DNA of 6,368 nt from Methylovirgula sp. (GTDB taxonomy: Bacteria; Pseudomonadota; Alphaproteobacteria; Rhizobiales; Beijerinckiaceae): positions 1 through 6,368 of the forward strand of contig JASHVQ010000199.1 in the NCBI GenBank assembly GCA_030044485.1, in the 5' to 3' direction. The notes under the pieces are model-generated. The model was not told the origin of the DNA, did no database searches, and saw only the letters and a program-made list of their open reading frames with translations. Made by a program: the position numbers and the translations under genes. Shown here piece by piece: positions 2-6,368 of the stretch (positions are counted from its first letter, which is position 1; every line of letters starts with the position of its first letter).

Positions 2-832
2 GACCAATTGGTCCAGCTGCTTCAGGACCGCGTCTCGGCGGGCGGGGCCTCCGCGCTCGACCTGGCGCGCGAGCGCATCAACCGGTCGGAGATCATTCTG
101 GCGTTGAGCGATCTGGAACAGGCCGCCGCCGAGGCGCGAGTCGGGCTCGCGACCGCCATAGGTATTTCGGCCGAGGCCCTCGATGGCGTAGATTTGAGCA
201 TGGACGTTTTCGACCATCCCCCCGCCCCGGCCGGGACCTATAGCGCGTGGCGGCGCCAGGCTTTGACGCAGCGCAGCGACATCCAGGCGAGCCTGCAGGC
301 CTATTCCGCCGCGCAGGCCGCACTCGGCCTCGCCATCGCCAACCAATTTCCGAACATTACCTTGAGCCCGGGCTATACTTACCAGTACGGGATCAACCAG
401 TACGAACTCAATCTCAGCGCGACGCTTCCGATTTTCAATCAGAACCAGGGGCCGATCGCCGAGGCCCTCGCCAAGCGTCAGGAGGCAGCCGCCACGTTCA
501 CCGCCCTGCAGGCTGAGGTCATCGGGGCCATCGACCAAGCCGCCACCGCCTATCGTCACTCCTCCAGCACCTTGGCCAGCGCCGACGCGCTGCTTGCCGA
601 AGAAGAACAGCGCGCCAGCCAAATGAAGAACTCCTTCCGGGCCGGCGCGGTCGACCGTCCGACCTTGGTCACCTCGCAAGTGGAGGAATCCCTGACGGCG
701 CTCTCGCATTTCGACGCGCTCGTGCGTCAGCGTCAGGCGCTCGGCTTGCTGGAGGACGCCTTGCAGCACTCGCTCTACGGACCCGATGTCATCTCGCCCA
801 CGCTCACGCGGGATCCGGAGTCGTCGTCGTGA
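2..832 (+). CDS. TolC-family outer-membrane efflux channel (CusC/CzcC-like), 5' partial
   Basis: This is the C-terminal 276 residues of an outer-membrane factor, the trimeric channel-tunnel that exports substrate from an RND pump out of the cell. The frame is open from the window edge. The TTG at 8 is internal, not a start, so the signal peptide and roughly the first 150 residues of a usual 420-470 residue protein lie upstream. Visible family marks are a long Ala/Gln/Glu-rich helix (about residues 15-55), the second-repeat RSDIQA motif (91-96; RPDL.A is the common form), a beta segment with alternating Tyr (about 119-140), and the conserved PIFNQNQGPIAEA stretch (143-155), followed by a second long coiled helix (about 155-255). 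The stop TGA (830-832) overlaps the adaptor's GTG start. Co-location with the adaptor and a CusA/CzcA-type pump points to metal efflux. The family is certain; the substrate is inferred only from neighbours. Confidence 0.94.
   Translation, partial: DQLVQLLQDRVSAGGASALDLARERINRSEIILALSDLEQAAAEARVGLATAIGISAEALDGVDLSMDVFDHPPAPAGTYSAWRRQALTQRSDIQASLQAYSAAQAALGLAIANQFPNITLSPGYTYQYGINQYELNLSATLPIFNQNQGPIAEALAKRQEAAATFTALQAEVIGAIDQAATAYRHSSSTLASADALLAEEEQRASQMKNSFRAGAVDRPTLVTSQVEESLTALSHFDALVRQRQALGLLEDALQHSLYGPDVISPTLTRDPESSS
817..820 (+). promoter_or_regulatory. Shine-Dalgarno GGAG for the adaptor gene
   Basis: GGAG lies 8 bases before the GTG at 829, inside the 3' end of the channel gene. It supports the overlapping GTG as the real start and coupling of the two genes. 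Confidence 0.6.
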
Positions 833-1893
833 CGGCGCCCTCGGCATCCTGGCGGCGCGCCTTGTTTGCAGCCGTCCTGGTTCTGGGCGCGGGCGCGGCG
901 GCCGTCTCCCTCCTCCATTCCCTGGTAGGCCAGACGCGAGCCGACGATGACGACGATGCCGAGAGCGTCGCCAATCCGCCGACGCGCGTCGTGATCAAGA
1001 ACGGCATCGCCATTCTGACGTTGAGCGCCGCGGATCTGCAAAATGCCGGTATTGAAAGCGCCCGCCTGGCGCGCGCTCCCGAGATAGATTCGGTCGTGGG
1101 CTTCGCGACGGTTCTCGATCCCACGCCGCTCGCCGATTTGAGCAGCCGATATCGCGACGCGGAGGCGCAGGTCGAAAGTGCCACCGCCAAGCTCGCCGTC
1201 TCCAGCGCCGCTTTCGATCGCGCCCAAATCCTCTACAGAGATCAGCAGAACATCTCAACCGCCCAACTGCAGAACGCGCAAAGCGCATTCGAACTCGACC
1301 AAGTGGCACTCGCCGCCGCACGCGCCCATCTCGGCGGCGTGGCGGCCAGCATTCGCCAAGCTTGGGGAAGCGCGCTCGGCACCGCGCTGATCGACAACGC
1401 ACCGCTGCTCAACGAACTCCTGGCGCGCAACATCTATCTCGTCAAAGTCACGCTGCCTCCCAGTGTCGATACCCCGAGCCCGCCCGAGACCGCGGATGCG
1501 AGGCTGAACGACCGCACCATCGTGCGGCTCAACTACATCTCCTTGGCGGCAACCACCAATCCGAAACTGCAAGGCATCAGCTATTTCTACACCGCCCCGG
1601 CCCAGGAGGGGCTGCTGCCCGGCCTTAATCTCGAGACGACGCTCGGCGTTCGATTGGCGCAGCGCGGCTGGATCGTGCCGAATTCGGCGGTGGTGTGGCT
1701 CGAAGGCCAGGCCTGGATCTACATACGCACCGATCCCAAGACCTTCATCCGGCAAAGGATCTCGCCCGACCGTCCCGCCGCCGACGACGGCTATATCGTT
1801 ACCGGCCTGCCGCCGAACGCCGACGTCGCGGTGCACGGCGCGCAAATGCTGCTCTCCGAGGAGTTCCGCGCCCAGGTCCCGGTCGAGGATTAA
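829..1893 (+). CDS. Periplasmic adaptor (membrane fusion protein) of the RND metal efflux system
   Basis: This 354-residue protein is likely the adaptor linking the inner-membrane pump to the outer-membrane channel. An N-terminal hydrophobic segment (about residues 11-34, after the basic SWRR) is a signal-anchor or signal peptide. It is followed by a run of five Asp (39-43) that could bind metal or be a linker. Residues about 105-175 form an Ala/Gln-rich helical hairpin (RYRDAEAQVESATAKL down, STAQLQNAQSAFELDQ back) typical of adaptors. Residues about 200-280 fit the beta-barrel part, with the usual late motif LLPGLNLETTLG (262-273), and PNSAVVWLEGQAWIYI (284-299) matches the membrane-proximal domain seen in adaptors. 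The flanking barrel-sandwich halves with the usual Gly-rich lipoyl motif are not apparent: VLDPTPL (95-101) leads directly into the hairpin. The protein is somewhat shorter than typical CusB/CzcB. The GTG start is chosen for its 4-base overlap with the upstream stop and its GGAG. Adaptor role is confident from context and fold pattern; the exact subfamily is not. Confidence 0.88.
   Translation: MTAPSASWRRALFAAVLVLGAGAAAVSLLHSLVGQTRADDDDDAESVANPPTRVVIKNGIAILTLSAADLQNAGIESARLARAPEIDSVVGFATVLDPTPLADLSSRYRDAEAQVESATAKLAVSSAAFDRAQILYRDQQNISTAQLQNAQSAFELDQVALAAARAHLGGVAASIRQAWGSALGTALIDNAPLLNELLARNIYLVKVTLPPSVDTPSPPETADARLNDRTIVRLNYISLAATTNPKLQGISYFYTAPAQEGLLPGLNLETTLGVRLAQRGWIVPNSAVVWLEGQAWIYIRTDPKTFIRQRISPDRPAADDGYIVTGLPPNADVAVHGAQMLLSEEFRAQVPVED
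1885..1889 (+). promoter_or_regulatory. Shine-Dalgarno GAGGA for the RND pump gene
   Basis: GAGGA sits inside the last codons of the adaptor gene, 9 bases before the ATG at 1899 and 6 before an in-frame GTG at 1896. It fixes the start to one of these two codons and rejects the longer open frame that extends up to 1695 inside the adaptor gene. Confidence 0.6.
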
Positions 1894-1898
1894 CGGTG

Positions 1899-4800
1899 AT
1901 GCGCGTCGCCGGTTTTCAGGCCTTCATCATCCGCTTCGCGCTGCGCTTTCGCGGCATCATCGTCGTCCTCTCCGCCCTGCTCGTCGCCTACGGCATCTAT
2001 GTGCTGAGCCACGCGAGCTACGACGCCTTTCCGGAATTCGCCCCGCCCCAGGTCGACGTGCAGACGGAAGCGCCGGGCTTCGCCTCCGAACAGGTCGAGA
2101 CTTTGGTTACCCGGCCGATCGAAGCGGCGATCAATGGCGCGCCCAATCTGCAACGCATCACGTCGAGCTCGATCCAGGGCCTTTCCGACATCAAGGTCTA
2201 TTTCGATCCGAGCACGGACCTTTTCCATGACCGGCAGCTGGTCGCCGAGCGCCTTTCGGTCGTGGTCGCTCAATTGCCGGCGGGAGTCGAACCGCCGGCG
2301 ATGACGCCGCTCACCTCATCGGCCGCGACCGTTCTGGTGATCGGCTTCACCTCGTCCAAACTCTCGCTGATGCAGCTGCGCACCGTCGCCAAATGGACGG
2401 TGCGCCCGAGCCTTCTGTCGGTACCCGGTGTGGCCGGCGCCGAGATTTTCGGCGGCGAAGAAAAATCGACGCAGATCCTCGTCCATCCCGATCGGCTCAT
2501 CCGCTTCGGCCTGAGCATGGAAGACGTTCTCGCCGCGGCGCGACGCTCGACCGGTGTGCGCGGCGCCGGGTTCGTCAGCACGCCGAACCAGCAGATCACC
2601 TTGCAGACCGACACGCAGGCGATCGGTGCGGCCGACATCGCGCGTACGGTCGTGGCGCGACAGGAAGGCGGCAGCGTCACGTTGGGAGATGTCGCGGACG
2701 TCATCGAAGCGCCGGAACCGGCCATCGGCGGCGCCGCCATCATGGGCGAGCCCGGCGTCGTCATGAACATCGACGAGCAATATGGCGCCAACACGCTCGA
2801 CGTCACCAAGGAGATCGAGGCGGCGCTCGCCGACCTTCAACCAACTTTGAAGGCCGAGGGCGTGACCCTGCATGGCGGACTTTTCCGCCCCGCCAACTTC
2901 ATCATCGCCGCGACCGACAATCTGCGCGTCTCGTTGCTGATCGGCGGCGTTCTCGTCGTCGCCGTGCTCATTCTTTTCCTGTTCGATCTGCGTGCCGCGG
3001 CGATTTGCTGCTCGGCGATCCCGATCTCGCTGCTCGCCGCCGTCGTGGTGCTGCAGCAATATGGCGTGACGCTCAATACCATGACGCTCGGCGGACTGGC
3101 GATCGCCCTCGGTGAGGTCGTCGACGACGCGGTCATCGGCATCGAAAACATCACGCGGCGGCTGCGCGAGAACCGGCAGCGAAGCGAGCCGCGCCCGGCG
3201 GCGCGCGTCGTGCTCGAGGCGACCTATGAGGTTCGCAGCGCCGTCGTCTATGCGACCTTCGCCGTGCTTCTCGTCTTCCTGCCGGTCGTCACGCTCGCGG
3301 GCGTGGCCGGCCGCCTGTTCGCTCCCCTCGGTCTCACCTACATCTTCGCGGTTCTGGCCTCGCTCATCGTCGCCGTCACCGTGACGCCGGCGATGTCGCT
3401 GCTCTTCCTGCCGAACCACACTAAGGAGCGCGTACCGCCCGTGGTGCGTTGGACGCGCGGCCGATACGAAGCGATTTTGCAGCGCGTGGTACGCGCTCCG
3501 CGCCTGGCCATTGCCTTCGCCGCGGTGCTCACGTTCGGCGGAATCGCCCTGCTGCCGCTGTTTGGCGAAACCTTTCTTCCCGACCTGCAGGAAGGCCATT
3601 TCATCGTACATATGACCGTCATGCCGGGGACGGCCACATACGAGTCTCTGCGCATGGGAGCGCGCGTGACCGCGGTTCTCGAAAAACTGCCCATCGTCCG
3701 CACGGTCGCCCAACGGGTCGGGCGCGCCGAACGCGCCGCCGCCGGCGACACGCATGGCCTGCATCAGAGCGAATTCGAAGTGGAGCTCACCACGCCTTCC
3801 GGCGACGCCGCGAAGAACGCCAAGACGAATATTCTGCGCCACCTGACGAATTTCCCGGGCGTCAATTTCTCCGCCAATACATTCTTGACGGAGCGCGTCA
3901 ACGAGACCTTCTCCGGCTATACGACGCCGGTCGCGGTGAACGTCTACGGCCGCGACCTCGATGTCATCAACGATACGGCGCAGCGCGTCGCCGACGTTTT
4001 GCGCGGCATTCCCGGCGCGACTTCGGTGGAGATGGAATCGCCGCTTGGCCTGCCGCAGATCATGATCAAGCTGCGCCCCGTCGATCTACAGCGCTGGGGC
4101 TTCGATCCGGCCGGCATCCTCGATGTCATTCGCACCGCCTATCAGGGCGACATCGTCGGCCAAACCTACGAGGGCGACCGGGTCTTCGACGTGGTCGTTC
4201 GGCTCGCGCCGCGCCAGGGCAATATCGCCGACATTCGCGATCTGCCGATCGCCGCCCCGGACGGCACTTACGTCCACCTGAGCCAGGTGGCCGACGTCAA
4301 GGCCTCCTCCGGACTCTATGAAATCCAGCATCAAGGAGGCCGCAGGCTGCAATCGGTCACGCTCGACGTGCAGGGACGCGATCCCACCTCCTTCGTCGCC
4401 GACGCGCGCCGCGCCATTTCGGAAAAGGTGAAACTGCCGCCCGACACTTACATCGTCTATTCGGGCGCCGCCGAAGGACAGGCGCAAGCGCAAGCCGACC
4501 TCACGCTGAAAGGTCTTTTCGCCGGCATCGGCATTGCGCTTCTGCTTTCGGTGGTCACGCGCAATTGGCGCAATCTTCTCATCACCATGGCCAACCTGCC
4601 CTTCGCGCTCGTGGGCGGGGTCGTGGCGGTTTTCTTTTCAGGCGGCGTTTTGTCGCTCGGCTCGCTCGTCGGCTTCGTGACGCTCTTCGGCATCACCTTG
4701 CGTAATTCGATGATGATGATCTCGCATTACGAGCATCTGGTCGCGGTCGACGCGCAACAATGGCGCTTGGAGACGGCCGTGCGCGGCGCGGGCGACCGGC

Positions 4801-5084
4801 TCGCGGCGGTGCTCATGACCTCGCTCGTTACCGGCCTCGGCCTTCTGCCCCTCGCACTCGGATCGGCAGCTCCCGGCCGCGAAATCGAAGGGCCCATGGC
4901 CATGGTCATTCTCGGCGGCCTGTTCACATCGACCGCGCTCAACCTCTTCGTTCTTCCGCCGCTCGCCCTGCGCTACGGACGCTTCTCCGCCGTCACCGGC
5001 GGCGACGAACTTCTCGATGCGGCGGACGCGCCGGTTCCCGAAAACGACCGCGCGCCCGTCCCCGCCCTCGCCCCTTCGGAATGA
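1899..5084 (+). CDS. CusA/CzcA-family heavy-metal efflux RND transporter (inner-membrane proton antiporter)
   Basis: This 1061-residue protein is full length for the HME-RND family (about 1040-1070). It trades protons for metal ions and feeds the adaptor/channel conduit. The order is TM1 (about 13-35), periplasmic porter domain 1 opening with YDAFPEFAPPQVDVQTEAPG (41-60), TM2-6 (about 344-502), TM7 (about 535-553), porter domain 2, then TM8-12 (about 871-1020). TM4 carries AIALGEVVDDAVIGIEN (401-417). D409 and E416 match the essential proton-relay Asp and the Glu of the VDxAVxxxEN signature. The first Asp of CzcA (DFG) is Ala here, as in CusA. ETFLPDLQEG (557-566) and GRAERA (608-613) are further family marks. 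Aligned by eye, the CusA Met triad positions read H571, Q623 and E669, so Cu(I)/Ag(I) use is not supported; Co/Zn/Ni/Cd-type or another ion is possible. The C-terminal tail (about 1035-1061) is Pro/Asp-rich. GTG 1896 is an alternative start one codon earlier. Family is certain, substrate open. Confidence 0.97.
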   Translation: MRVAGFQAFIIRFALRFRGIIVVLSALLVAYGIYVLSHASYDAFPEFAPPQVDVQTEAPGFASEQVETLVTRPIEAAINGAPNLQRITSSSIQGLSDIKVYFDPSTDLFHDRQLVAERLSVVVAQLPAGVEPPAMTPLTSSAATVLVIGFTSSKLSLMQLRTVAKWTVRPSLLSVPGVAGAEIFGGEEKSTQILVHPDRLIRFGLSMEDVLAAARRSTGVRGAGFVSTPNQQITLQTDTQAIGAADIARTVVARQEGGSVTLGDVADVIEAPEPAIGGAAIMGEPGVVMNIDEQYGANTLDVTKEIEAALADLQPTLKAEGVTLHGGLFRPANFIIAATDNLRVSLLIGGVLVVAVLILFLFDLRAAAICCSAIPISLLAAVVVLQQYGVTLNTMTLGGLAIALGEVVDDAVIGIENITRRLRENRQRSEPRPAARVVLEATYEVRSAVVYATFAVLLVFLPVVTLAGVAGRLFAPLGLTYIFAVLASLIVAVTVTPAMSLLFLPNHTKERVPPVVRWTRGRYEAILQRVVRAPRLAIAFAAVLTFGGIALLPLFGETFLPDLQEGHFIVHMTVMPGTATYESLRMGARVTAVLEKLPIVRTVAQRVGRAERAAAGDTHGLHQSEFEVELTTPSGDAAKNAKTNILRHLTNFPGVNFSANTFLTERVNETFSGYTTPVAVNVYGRDLDVINDTAQRVADVLRGIPGATSVEMESPLGLPQIMIKLRPVDLQRWGFDPAGILDVIRTAYQGDIVGQTYEGDRVFDVVVRLAPRQGNIADIRDLPIAAPDGTYVHLSQVADVKASSGLYEIQHQGGRRLQSVTLDVQGRDPTSFVADARRAISEKVKLPPDTYIVYSGAAEGQAQAQADLTLKGLFAGIGIALLLSVVTRNWRNLLITMANLPFALVGGVVAVFFSGGVLSLGSLVGFVTLFGITLRNSMMMISHYEHLVAVDAQQWRLETAVRGAGDRLAAVLMTSLVTGLGLLPLALGSAAPGREIEGPMAMVILGGLFTSTALNLFVLPPLALRYGRFSAVTGGDELLDAADAPVPENDRAPVPALAPSE

Positions 5085-5090
5085 CAGCCG

Positions 5091-5567
5091 CTAATTCAGC
5101 GCCTTCCAATTGTCGGCGAAGAACCCGCGCGCGTCGAGCCCGCCGCTCATTTCGCCGGGCGCGGCCTTGCCGCCCACGCAGCGCCAGACATAGGCCGTAT
5201 CATGGCCCGTGACATACATGGGAATGAAATCCGAACCCGGATTGCTCCGGCACCATGCGTCGGCGGGCGGCATGTCCTTGCTGAGATTGGCCTTCCCGCA
5301 AGGCAGATTGGCACCGACCGTGCAGAGCATCACATGTCCGCCGGCGCAGCGGTAATAGCTCGTCTCGAGCGCATATTTTCCGTCGATTCCGAAAATGTGC
5401 TGCAGCGGCGCGGCGAGCGCCGCGACGGCAGGGCGCAGCTGATCGTCGTTGACGACCCGCGCGCAATAGCGGCGCGGCGTCTCGGCTGCTTTTGGGCTTG
5501 CCGCCGCGCAAAATAGGCCCGCGATAAGCGCCAGGATGAATCGAATGTCGTAGGGGCTTGGGCTCAT
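5091..5567 (-). CDS. Exported six-cysteine protein of unknown function
   Basis: This 158-residue protein has an N-terminal signal peptide (hydrophobic core about residues 9-23, IRFILALIAGLFCAAASPKA, likely cleavage near AxA at 24-28), so it should act in the periplasm or outside. The mature part has six Cys (35, 74, 82, 90, 106, 130), enough for three disulfides. Distinct short motifs are YRCAGGHVMLC (72-82), NLPCGKA (87-93), WCRSNPGSDFIPMYVTGHDTAYVWRCVG (105-132) and a C-terminal FFADNWKALN. I recall similar hypothetical proteins ending in DNWKE-type tails in Hyphomicrobiales, but no function is known to me. The ATG at 5567 is chosen because GGAGG lies 5 bases upstream and the signal peptide begins directly; an ATG 16 codons earlier would put a charged extension before the signal. 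The gene converges on the metal pump with a 6-base gap and is divergent from leuA. No link in function to either is evident. Confidence 0.86.
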   Translation of the reverse strand: MSPSPYDIRFILALIAGLFCAAASPKAAETPRRYCARVVNDDQLRPAVAALAAPLQHIFGIDGKYALETSYYRCAGGHVMLCTVGANLPCGKANLSKDMPPADAWCRSNPGSDFIPMYVTGHDTAYVWRCVGGKAAPGEMSGGLDARGFFADNWKALN

Positions 5568-5572
5568 CCGAT

Positions 5573-5577
5573 CCTCC
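5573..5577 (-). promoter_or_regulatory. Strong Shine-Dalgarno GGAGG for the exported Cys-rich protein
   Basis: On the minus strand GGAGG precedes the ATG at 5567 by 5 bases. It is the best ribosome binding site in the window and decides the start codon of the six-cysteine protein. Confidence 0.7.
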
Positions 5578-5635
5578 AGCTTACAGTCCTGCAAGCGCCG
5601 CCCGGCGCCGTGCAACCCTTATTAGAGCGCTGATC

Positions 5636-5761: not shown

Positions 5762-5790
5762 TTGGCCAATTGGAATCGTTTCGAAATTCG
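5762..5790. repeat. Cluster of overlapping small palindromes
   Basis: TTGGCCAA (5762-5769) overlaps CCAATTGG (5766-5773), and TTTCGAAA (5779-5786) overlaps CGAAATTCG (5782-5790). Four symmetric elements in 29 bases lie between the possible promoters and the leader peptide. They could be an operator for a dimeric regulator or a chance result of local composition; no known operator is recognised. Confidence 0.3.
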
Positions 5791-5855
5791 AGGTCGCTGT
5801 GCATTCTTCGGCAAAGCCGCTCCGCAAGAGCCCGACGCGGTCTTTCGCGCCGGTT

Positions 5856-5915
5856 GTGGCGTGCCGGCGCCCGACTTTCCTGTGGACCAGCCTGCTTCTC
5901 CTTAGGCGCCCCTGA
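5856..5915 (+). CDS. Leucine-rich leader peptide of leuA (attenuator peptide)
   Basis: A short frame starting at GTG 5856 encodes 19 residues ending LWTSLLLLRRP. Four consecutive Leu codons (CTG CTT CTC CTT, 5892-5903) plus one at 5880 make five Leu of 19, and the TGA at 5913-5915 lies 72 bases before leuA. A run of codons for the end product just before its biosynthetic gene is the hallmark of ribosome-mediated attenuation, as in the enterobacterial leu operon. The ribosome would sense charged tRNA-Leu; the peptide itself probably has no function. The start is uncertain. GTG 5856 has no clear Shine-Dalgarno sequence, while an in-frame GTG at 5799 has GAGG 5 bases upstream (5790-5793) and would give 38 residues with the same end. 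The C-terminal part and stop are what matter and are the same for both. Confidence 0.62.
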   Translation: MACRRPTFLWTSLLLLRRP

Positions 5916-5979
5916 GGGCCGCCGGGGCTATGCCCAGGTCCTTGGGGGATCGCGTGAGCAAGCCGCCACTCGAAGCAGG
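5891..5979 (+). promoter_or_regulatory. leuA attenuator region: alternative RNA hairpins and Shine-Dalgarno masking
   Basis: Several mutually exclusive pairings are possible. (1) Stem GGCG-CCC (5905-5911) with GGG-C-CGCC (5916-5923), loop CTGA, one bulged C, spans the leader stop. (2) GCCCC (5908-5912) with GGGGC (5924-5928). (3) GGGC (5925-5928) with GCCC (5932-5935). (4) CCCAG (5933-5937) with TTGGG (5942-5946). (5) GGACC (5884-5888) with GGTCC (5937-5941). (6) TCGCGTG (5950-5956) with CACTCGA (5967-5973), one mismatch. (7) CCTGCTTC (5891-5898, the Leu codons) with GAAGCAGG (5972-5979), perfect and overlapping the leuA Shine-Dalgarno. No T-run follows any hairpin before leuA, so a standard intrinsic terminator is not seen. 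Attenuator identity is inferred from the leader peptide; the mechanism is open. Confidence 0.45.
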
Positions 5980-5980: not shown

Positions 5981-5987
5981 AAATTCC

Positions 5988-6368
5988 ATGACCCAACCGA
6001 ACGATAAAAACGGCGCGAGCCCAGCCGACCGAGTGCTCATCTTCGATACGACGCTGCGCGACGGCGAGCAATCGCCCGGCGCCTCGATGACTCTCGAAGA
6101 AAAGCTCGAAGTCGCCGAGCTTCTCGATGCCATGGGCGTCGACGTCATCGAAGCCGGATTCCCGATCGCCTCCGAAGGCGATTTCGAGGCGGTGAGCGAA
6201 GTCGCGCGGCGCGTCAAGCGCGCAAGCGTCGCCGGGCTTGCCCGTTCGGCGGCCAAGGACATCGACCGCGCCGGCGAGGCGCTCCGCCTGGCGGTGCGGC
6301 CGCGTATCCACACGTTCATTTCGACATCGCCGCTGCACATGAAATTCAAGCTCAACAAAGAGCCGGCC
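5988..6368 (+). CDS. leuA: 2-isopropylmalate synthase, N-terminal part (3' end cut by window)
   Basis: LeuA condenses acetyl-CoA with 2-oxoisovalerate to 2-isopropylmalate, the first committed and feedback-regulated step of leucine synthesis, in the cytoplasm. The window holds residues 1-127 of a protein usually of about 510-550. After a short hydrophilic lead (1-14), strand 1 of the TIM barrel reads [20 protein letters not shown] (15-34). The LRDGEQ-x10-K pattern (23-39) matches the isopropylmalate/homocitrate synthase signature, with R24 catalytic and D25 a metal ligand by family knowledge. E55AGFP59 and [15 protein letters not shown] (108-122) are further hallmarks of this enzyme over homocitrate or citramalate synthases, though the C-terminal regulatory domain is not visible to confirm. 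ATG 5988 has AGGA 7 bases upstream. The Leu-rich leader peptide upstream suggests control by leucyl-tRNA charging in addition to enzyme feedback. Confidence 0.96.

Follow-up and report, generated by a model that had tools for sequence, protein, structure and literature searches.

A short leucine-rich reading frame ahead of leuA is a widespread and real leader frame without an entry in Rfam 15. On comparative sequence evidence it quite probably controls leuA by translational attenuation, with its Leu codons serving at once as leucine sensor and as the strand that pairs with the leuA Shine-Dalgarno (SD) sequence (the anti-SD strand). The frame itself, a hairpin containing its stop codon, the complementarity between Leu run and leuA SD in the window, and the co-variation of this pairing across genomes are evident from the sequences. 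The window is the whole 6,368-nucleotide stretch analysed, from a contig of Methylovirgula sp.; all features of the leader and leuA lie on its forward strand.

The leader frame and its conservation

The leuA gene starts with ATG at position 5988 and is cut by the window end (5988–6368). Its frame matches 2-isopropylmalate synthase models over the N-terminal 127 amino acids (best NF002087, E 9.8e-57), with a score below the whole-protein cut-off, which is expected when the gene is truncated. Upstream, the leader frame ends with CTG TGG ACC AGC CTG CTT CTC CTT AGG CGC CCC TGA (5880–5915), encoding the C-terminus LWTSLLLLRRP-stop, and 72 bases lie between its TGA (5913–5915) and the leuA ATG; direct reading thus confirms the four-Leu frame reported at this distance by the initial annotation. 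The four Leu codons, CTG CTT CTC CTT (5892–5903), are the likely sensor.

The frame had been assigned a GTG start at 5856, where the SD is weak (-2.4 kcal/mol). GTG 5799 is in frame, gives a predicted product of 38 amino acids (5799–5915) and follows GAGGT (5790–5794), a predicted SD of -8.0 kcal/mol. A GTG aligns with it in two close relatives, L002 (SD -3.6) and L003 (SD -7.0), the latter with an additional later GTG (SD -7.5). Because of the stronger SD and the aligned codons, the leader probably starts at 5799, and position 5856 is the less likely choice. An in-frame start with an SD energy of -5 or lower is present in 52% of 89 loci, compared with 12% and 15% in the other two frames.

A leuA homology search of 60 genomes (the window's own included) gave matches in 57 (E ≤ 0.001), and 30 loci were retrieved, the window counting as one of them (L001). 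A Leu-rich frame ending in Pro-stop precedes leuA in 29 of the 30, the sole exception being L021, and this recurrence indicates that the frame is more than chance; end-product codons just before a biosynthetic gene are thus conserved in relatives, and the Leu run, Pro and stop are kept while the flanks vary. Four Leu residues in a row are not universal among the 29 frame ends. The suggestion that the Trp codon before the Leu run and the terminal RRP are lineage-conserved fares less well: the window is the only one of the 29 peptides with Trp at that position, so that a conserved Trp sensor is rejected, and Pro and the stop are retained but RRP as such varies. In the window's predicted fold the Trp codon pairs with CCA at 5986–5988.

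Larger counts derive from 208 loci, some overlapping and the window's own included, of which 202 were parsed and 195 are distinct. Those dropped before the parsing counts were L021 and L199, which have leuA without the element by the rule used, and L049, L051, L057 and L166, which are without a LeuA motif of the sought type. Greedy removal of loci with at least 82% identity over 180 nt of leuA reduced the 195 to 90. The set includes 120 loci (L061–L180) from a pattern scan, preselected for CTTA and CCCCTGA.

Pro is preceded by R in 108 of the 195 distinct loci, by S in 38, C in 29, G in 18 and N in 2 (the parser for these counts itself required CCC before the stop), and the stop is TGA in 189, TAG in four and TAA in two, with the hairpin pairing kept despite the change. 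Codon use at the last Leu was taken from the 78 distinct loci outside the pattern set, where it is CTT in 76 and CTA in two, followed by A in 76; by comparison, CTT accounts for 31 of 597 Leu codons in the leuA coding starts of the 90 loci. CTC-CTT reads as an anti-SD core, which may be one reason for the CTT preference, but the near-invariance of CTT-A (window 5901–5904) is only partly explained by SD pairing, since the SD partners vary. An Arg codon replaces the middle Leu in 31 of the 90 dereplicated leaders, often as CTT CGA CTT (L067, L072, L088, L102, L196 and others), and this third or so of the leaders dilutes the argument for a sensor. Arg-codon leaders with record titles are often of Acetobacteraceae, Rhodospirillales or Caulobacter type.

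The stop-codon hairpin

The leader stop lies within the 5′ arm of a conserved hairpin (5909–5948) with arms CCCCTGAGGGCC (5909–5920) and GGTCCTTGGGGG (5937–5948) and the core CCCCTGA...TCAGGGG. In the 29-locus alignment 97.1% of stem cells are paired compared with 88.9% in shuffles; seven of 13 pairs are changed on both sides (3.1 in shuffles) and 22 cells carry double changes (4.0 in shuffles). None of 500 shuffles, which ignore relatedness, is as high on any of these measures, and slid versions of the stem reach at most 60.6% paired. The CCC/GGG base of the stem is unvarying in these 29 loci, for which CCCCT and GGGG were an entry rule that excluded only L021, and the CTT-A ahead of it is almost invariant. 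In two further loci, L199 and L213, the hairpin is retained but its 5′ arm reads TGG where the stop would be, and the frames end later.

The enterobacterial leu operon attenuator, presumably Rfam family RF00512 (Leu_leader), shares with the window a leader peptide upstream of leuA with four Leu codons in a row. The element described here differs in being without an Rfam match, in usually lacking a U-tract after the hairpin and, as proposed below, in that it would mask the SD instead of terminating transcription. A T run of at least four within 15 nt after the hairpin occurs in five of the 90 loci, a little more often than in coding windows (1.9%), and is not present in the window; a T run of at least five anywhere before leuA occurs in seven of the 90. 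An intrinsic terminator as a general rule is rejected, the U-tract being absent in 85 of the 90 loci. Classical transcription attenuation, in which the hairpin or one overlapping it ends transcription once the ribosome finishes the leader, is consequently unlikely: the tandem Leu codons, the strong G+C-rich hairpin at the stop and the few loci with T runs are in its favour, but it leaves the co-variation of the Leu run with the SD unexplained, and with the stop inside the stem a finishing ribosome would open the hairpin and not favour it. The ribosome-mediated leucine attenuation first suggested for this locus therefore stands in part; the conserved leader most likely governs leuA by stalling, as judged from sequence, and the control is probably not of the enterobacterial transcriptional type.

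The usual absence of a U-tract and the 33–128 nt spacer between hairpin and leuA would also suit a Rho-dependent mechanism, in which leader translation governs access of Rho to the spacer. This is very unlikely, as the spacer is not conserved in length and shows no co-variation with the Leu run over its first 26 nt (z -0.48), and the co-variation of the SD is again left without an explanation. Highly improbable is the proposal, made by Seliverstov et al. for the LEU element discussed below, that the hairpin is the binding site of some protein and the Leu frame a minor matter. The unvarying stem base, the nearly fixed CTT-A and the two loci with TGG for the stop agree with it, but the frame keeps start and SD signals, Leu codons and a stop in any of three forms, none of which a pure protein site needs. 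Under translational attenuation the hairpin probably keeps the long-range pair between Leu run and SD compact, and a ribosome terminating at the stop would open it.

Predicted pairing of the Leu run with the leuA ribosome-binding site

Within the Leu run of the window, CCTGCTTC (5891–5898) is perfectly complementary to the leuA SD region GAAGCAGG (5972–5979). In the minimum-energy fold, CCUGCUUC (5891–5898) pairs with these same bases, enclosing the hairpin, so that the SD region is predicted to be masked by the Leu run. The fold energy is -53.5 (z -2.06), and six of 200 shuffles fold as well. The Leu-run/SD duplex has an energy of -18.6 kcal/mol, compared with a mean of -9.8 kcal/mol over all 90 SD regions (rank 1.1%).

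In a swap test, the 22 nt preceding the hairpin in every leader were matched once against the SD region of the leuA that follows and once against SD regions from other genomes. The own partner is favoured in the 195 loci (z -11.8) and in the 90 dereplicated loci, where own pairs average -12.9 kcal/mol and swapped pairs -10.5 (z -9.0; 0/5000 permutations as low). A position scan places the peak between leader positions -18 to -9, which are the Leu codons, and leuA positions -16 to -5; two smaller bumps, at leader -36 to -29 (z 2.8) and leuA -28 to -21 (z 2.6), are without explanation. Control pairs gave z -0.57 for the upstream segment -60 to -38 with the SD, z -2.16 for -90 to -68 with the SD, z +1.46 for the Leu run with the coding start and z +0.11 for the Leu run with leuA -50 to -24. 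The effect persists when only the 40 of 90 loci obtained otherwise than by the pattern scan are used (z -7.8) and when SD scoring plays no part in the choice of starts (z -8.3), and it is seen in leaders both without (z -6.6, 59 loci) and with a middle Arg codon (z -5.2, 31 loci).

Leu codons are rich in pyrimidines and SDs in purines, and the complementarity could be a by-product of this composition, with regulation by another route. Some pairing is found between Leu runs and SDs in general (all-pair mean -10.75, compared with -9.90 for shuffled SD regions), and reversing either the SD or the Leu run still leaves z -2.6, so that composition explains about 0.7 of the 2.45 kcal/mol difference; the upstream control at z -2.16 likewise points to a share for composition. 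That own SDs beat swapped ones of the same composition by this 2.45 kcal/mol, within clades too, makes a pure by-product scarcely credible. Of 2075 within-clade comparisons, which share sequences and are not independent, 1478 favour own pairing, 577 favour the swapped partner and 20 are ties.

The pairing is a population-level signal: it stands out strongly in the window, but not at all loci. For 66 of the 90 loci the own SD falls in the best half, and for only 27 in the best tenth, so that a fair share of them pair weakly or not at all; helices of at least seven pairs occur in 36 of the 90, with 18.6 expected from swaps.

When the Leu run is blocked in silico, the SD becomes more accessible, its mean unpaired probability going from 0.334 to 0.484 (58 of 90 loci up, 16 down), compared with 0.359 when an equal upstream stretch is blocked (31 up, 24 down); in the window, blocking of the Leu run takes it from 0.22 to 0.48. 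This exposure fits a stalled ribosome freeing leuA. Masking of the downstream SD by the strand that would lie under the stalled ribosome is thus found computationally, clearly in the window and statistically across loci.

Under the preferred reading, ribosomes would pass the Leu codons when leucine is plentiful and dissociate after reaching the stop within the hairpin. The Leu run, no longer occupied, would base-pair with the leuA SD, and the long stem thus formed around the hairpin would prevent initiation. When leucine is scarce, a ribosome held up at the Leu codons would cover the anti-SD strand, leaving the SD open and leuA translated; since these codons are complementary to the leuA ribosome-binding site, such stalling would likely free the gene for translation. 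In translational attenuators of the ermC and cat type a stalled leader ribosome likewise frees a masked SD, but drugs are sensed there, whereas in the present element the anti-SD strand would consist of the very codons at which the ribosome stalls.

The window fold also contains an outer stem, in which 5882–5886 is predicted to pair with 5985–5989, a segment that covers the A and T of the leuA ATG. This stem is confined to the window fold; across loci there is no excess for own partners at leuA -8 to -1 (z 0.3), leuA -4 to +3 (z -0.5) or leader -28 to -21 (z 0.6), and it was rejected as a general feature. Other long-range contacts gained no support either, six swap tests between other parts giving z -1.63 to +0.89.

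Distribution and relation to known systems

A covariance model (R1) built from the 29 loci was searched with strict filters against genomes of the order, class and phylum; it matches 167 of 199, 65 of 289 and 32 of 249 genomes, respectively, in sets that overlap and each include the window's genome, and all 32 in the phylum search are marked as the same class or nearer. Among 20 listed of the 32 order genomes without a match, 12 have orthologous leuA (E < 1e-39). Inspection by eye and a search for Leu-rich frames in these 12 found the element in two (L212 and L217), the TGG variant in L213 and no element in nine. The order-wide figure is therefore somewhat low, and real absences within the order exist.

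The pattern scan, which required no Leu codon beyond CTTA, returned at least 120 stretches. A LeuA-type motif lies 128–225 nt downstream in 119 of the 120 listed, and the remaining one (L166) lies 183 nt short of the point where its fetched stretch ends. Matches include methylotrophs and acetic acid bacteria; 79 of 80 listed titles name what we take, from general knowledge, to be alphaproteobacterial taxa, and one says only Proteobacteria. Rfam 15 gives no gathering match in the window; at E up to 5 there is one chance match to sR20, on the other strand inside leuA, and in 20 of the 30 loci the Rfam search found only tRNAs.

In family f50 the same leader and hairpin also stand ahead of a different LeuA protein family; loci with this arrangement are L049, L051, L057 and L239–L245, and the protein-family call rests on L051, whose LeuA scores above the cut-offs of both PRK03739 and TIGR00970. 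Since the leader precedes LeuA of this type as well, it seems from the sequences to go with LeuA function rather than a single gene lineage. Of 19 order genomes with a PRK03739/TIGR00970-type LeuA, seven have the element before it by rule, 11 are without it and L255 was unparsed; of those 11, two (G137 and G218) do have an R1 match directly upstream. Pairing of the Leu run with the SD is weak before this LeuA type (-3.8 to -12.9 kcal/mol, seven loci).

The closest known system appears to be the LEU element of Actinobacteria, a different phylum, likened here by its published description: a leuA leader frame with a Leu run that pairs with the leuA SD and a pseudoknot, and with no terminator described (Seliverstov et al. 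2005, PMC1262725). Its authors favoured a protein-binding site because of earlier Streptomyces mutants (PMC1262725). The Streptomyces lividans leuA leader is given as MRFGLLLLSCRGEGL-stop, without a typical terminator (PMC8079986). A leader frame with a Leu run upstream of leuA is common to both systems as described, as is pairing of that run with the SD, here by computation only. The differences are that the stop here lies inside the conserved CCCCUGA/UCAGGGG stem, that the peptide ends in Pro, and that swap tests gave no pseudoknot signal of the kind described for LEU (hairpin interior with spacer z -0.92, with SD region z -1.63; without pseudoknot-aware folding). The element may thus be seen as a variant of a LEU-type leader with a stop-codon hairpin, which would work like the Leu-run/SD part of LEU as described.

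Closer in taxonomy, published accounts treat the alphaproteobacterial ilv leader and trpL as attenuators of transcription (PMC4117421, PMC10117765), and by term counts "leuA" does not occur in the main texts of those two papers. As described, they resemble the present element as ribosome-sensed leader peptides of the same class. Vitreschak et al. 2004 is reportedly among the works on leader attenuators of this ilv/trpL type. That work aside, no paper on an alphaproteobacterial leuA leader was found in open-licence PMC titles and abstract beginnings among the matches listed.

A broader reading is tentative, and we hold it at somewhat less than even chance. It would make the element a leucine switch of many families within the class, not in Rfam, in which the Leu codons are both sensor and anti-SD strand, the stop is embedded in a conserved stem that a ribosome has to open in order to finish, and codon choice is set by the SD of each species; the likeness to LEU would then reflect ancient shared control or convergence, and in some lineages the switch would also precede LeuA of the other family. 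If true, leuA in most of the order and parts of the class would be under a testable, translation-level leucine control, synonymous codon choice in a regulatory frame would track the sequence of a distant ribosome-binding site, and another phylum would supply comparative evidence for the sort of Leu-run/SD pairing put forward earlier for Actinobacteria and not settled there.

The remainder of the window holds other genes. A frame of 174 amino acids on the reverse strand (5091–5615), between the RND gene and leuA, is without an NCBIfam match. Positions 2–5084 likely constitute a heavy-metal RND efflux operon; frames 2–832 and 829–1893 ahead of the pump are taken as outer-membrane and fusion proteins from their position only, and the pump itself (about 1893–5084) matches the CusA/CzcA family model with 661.8 bits, below the cut-off of 701.45.
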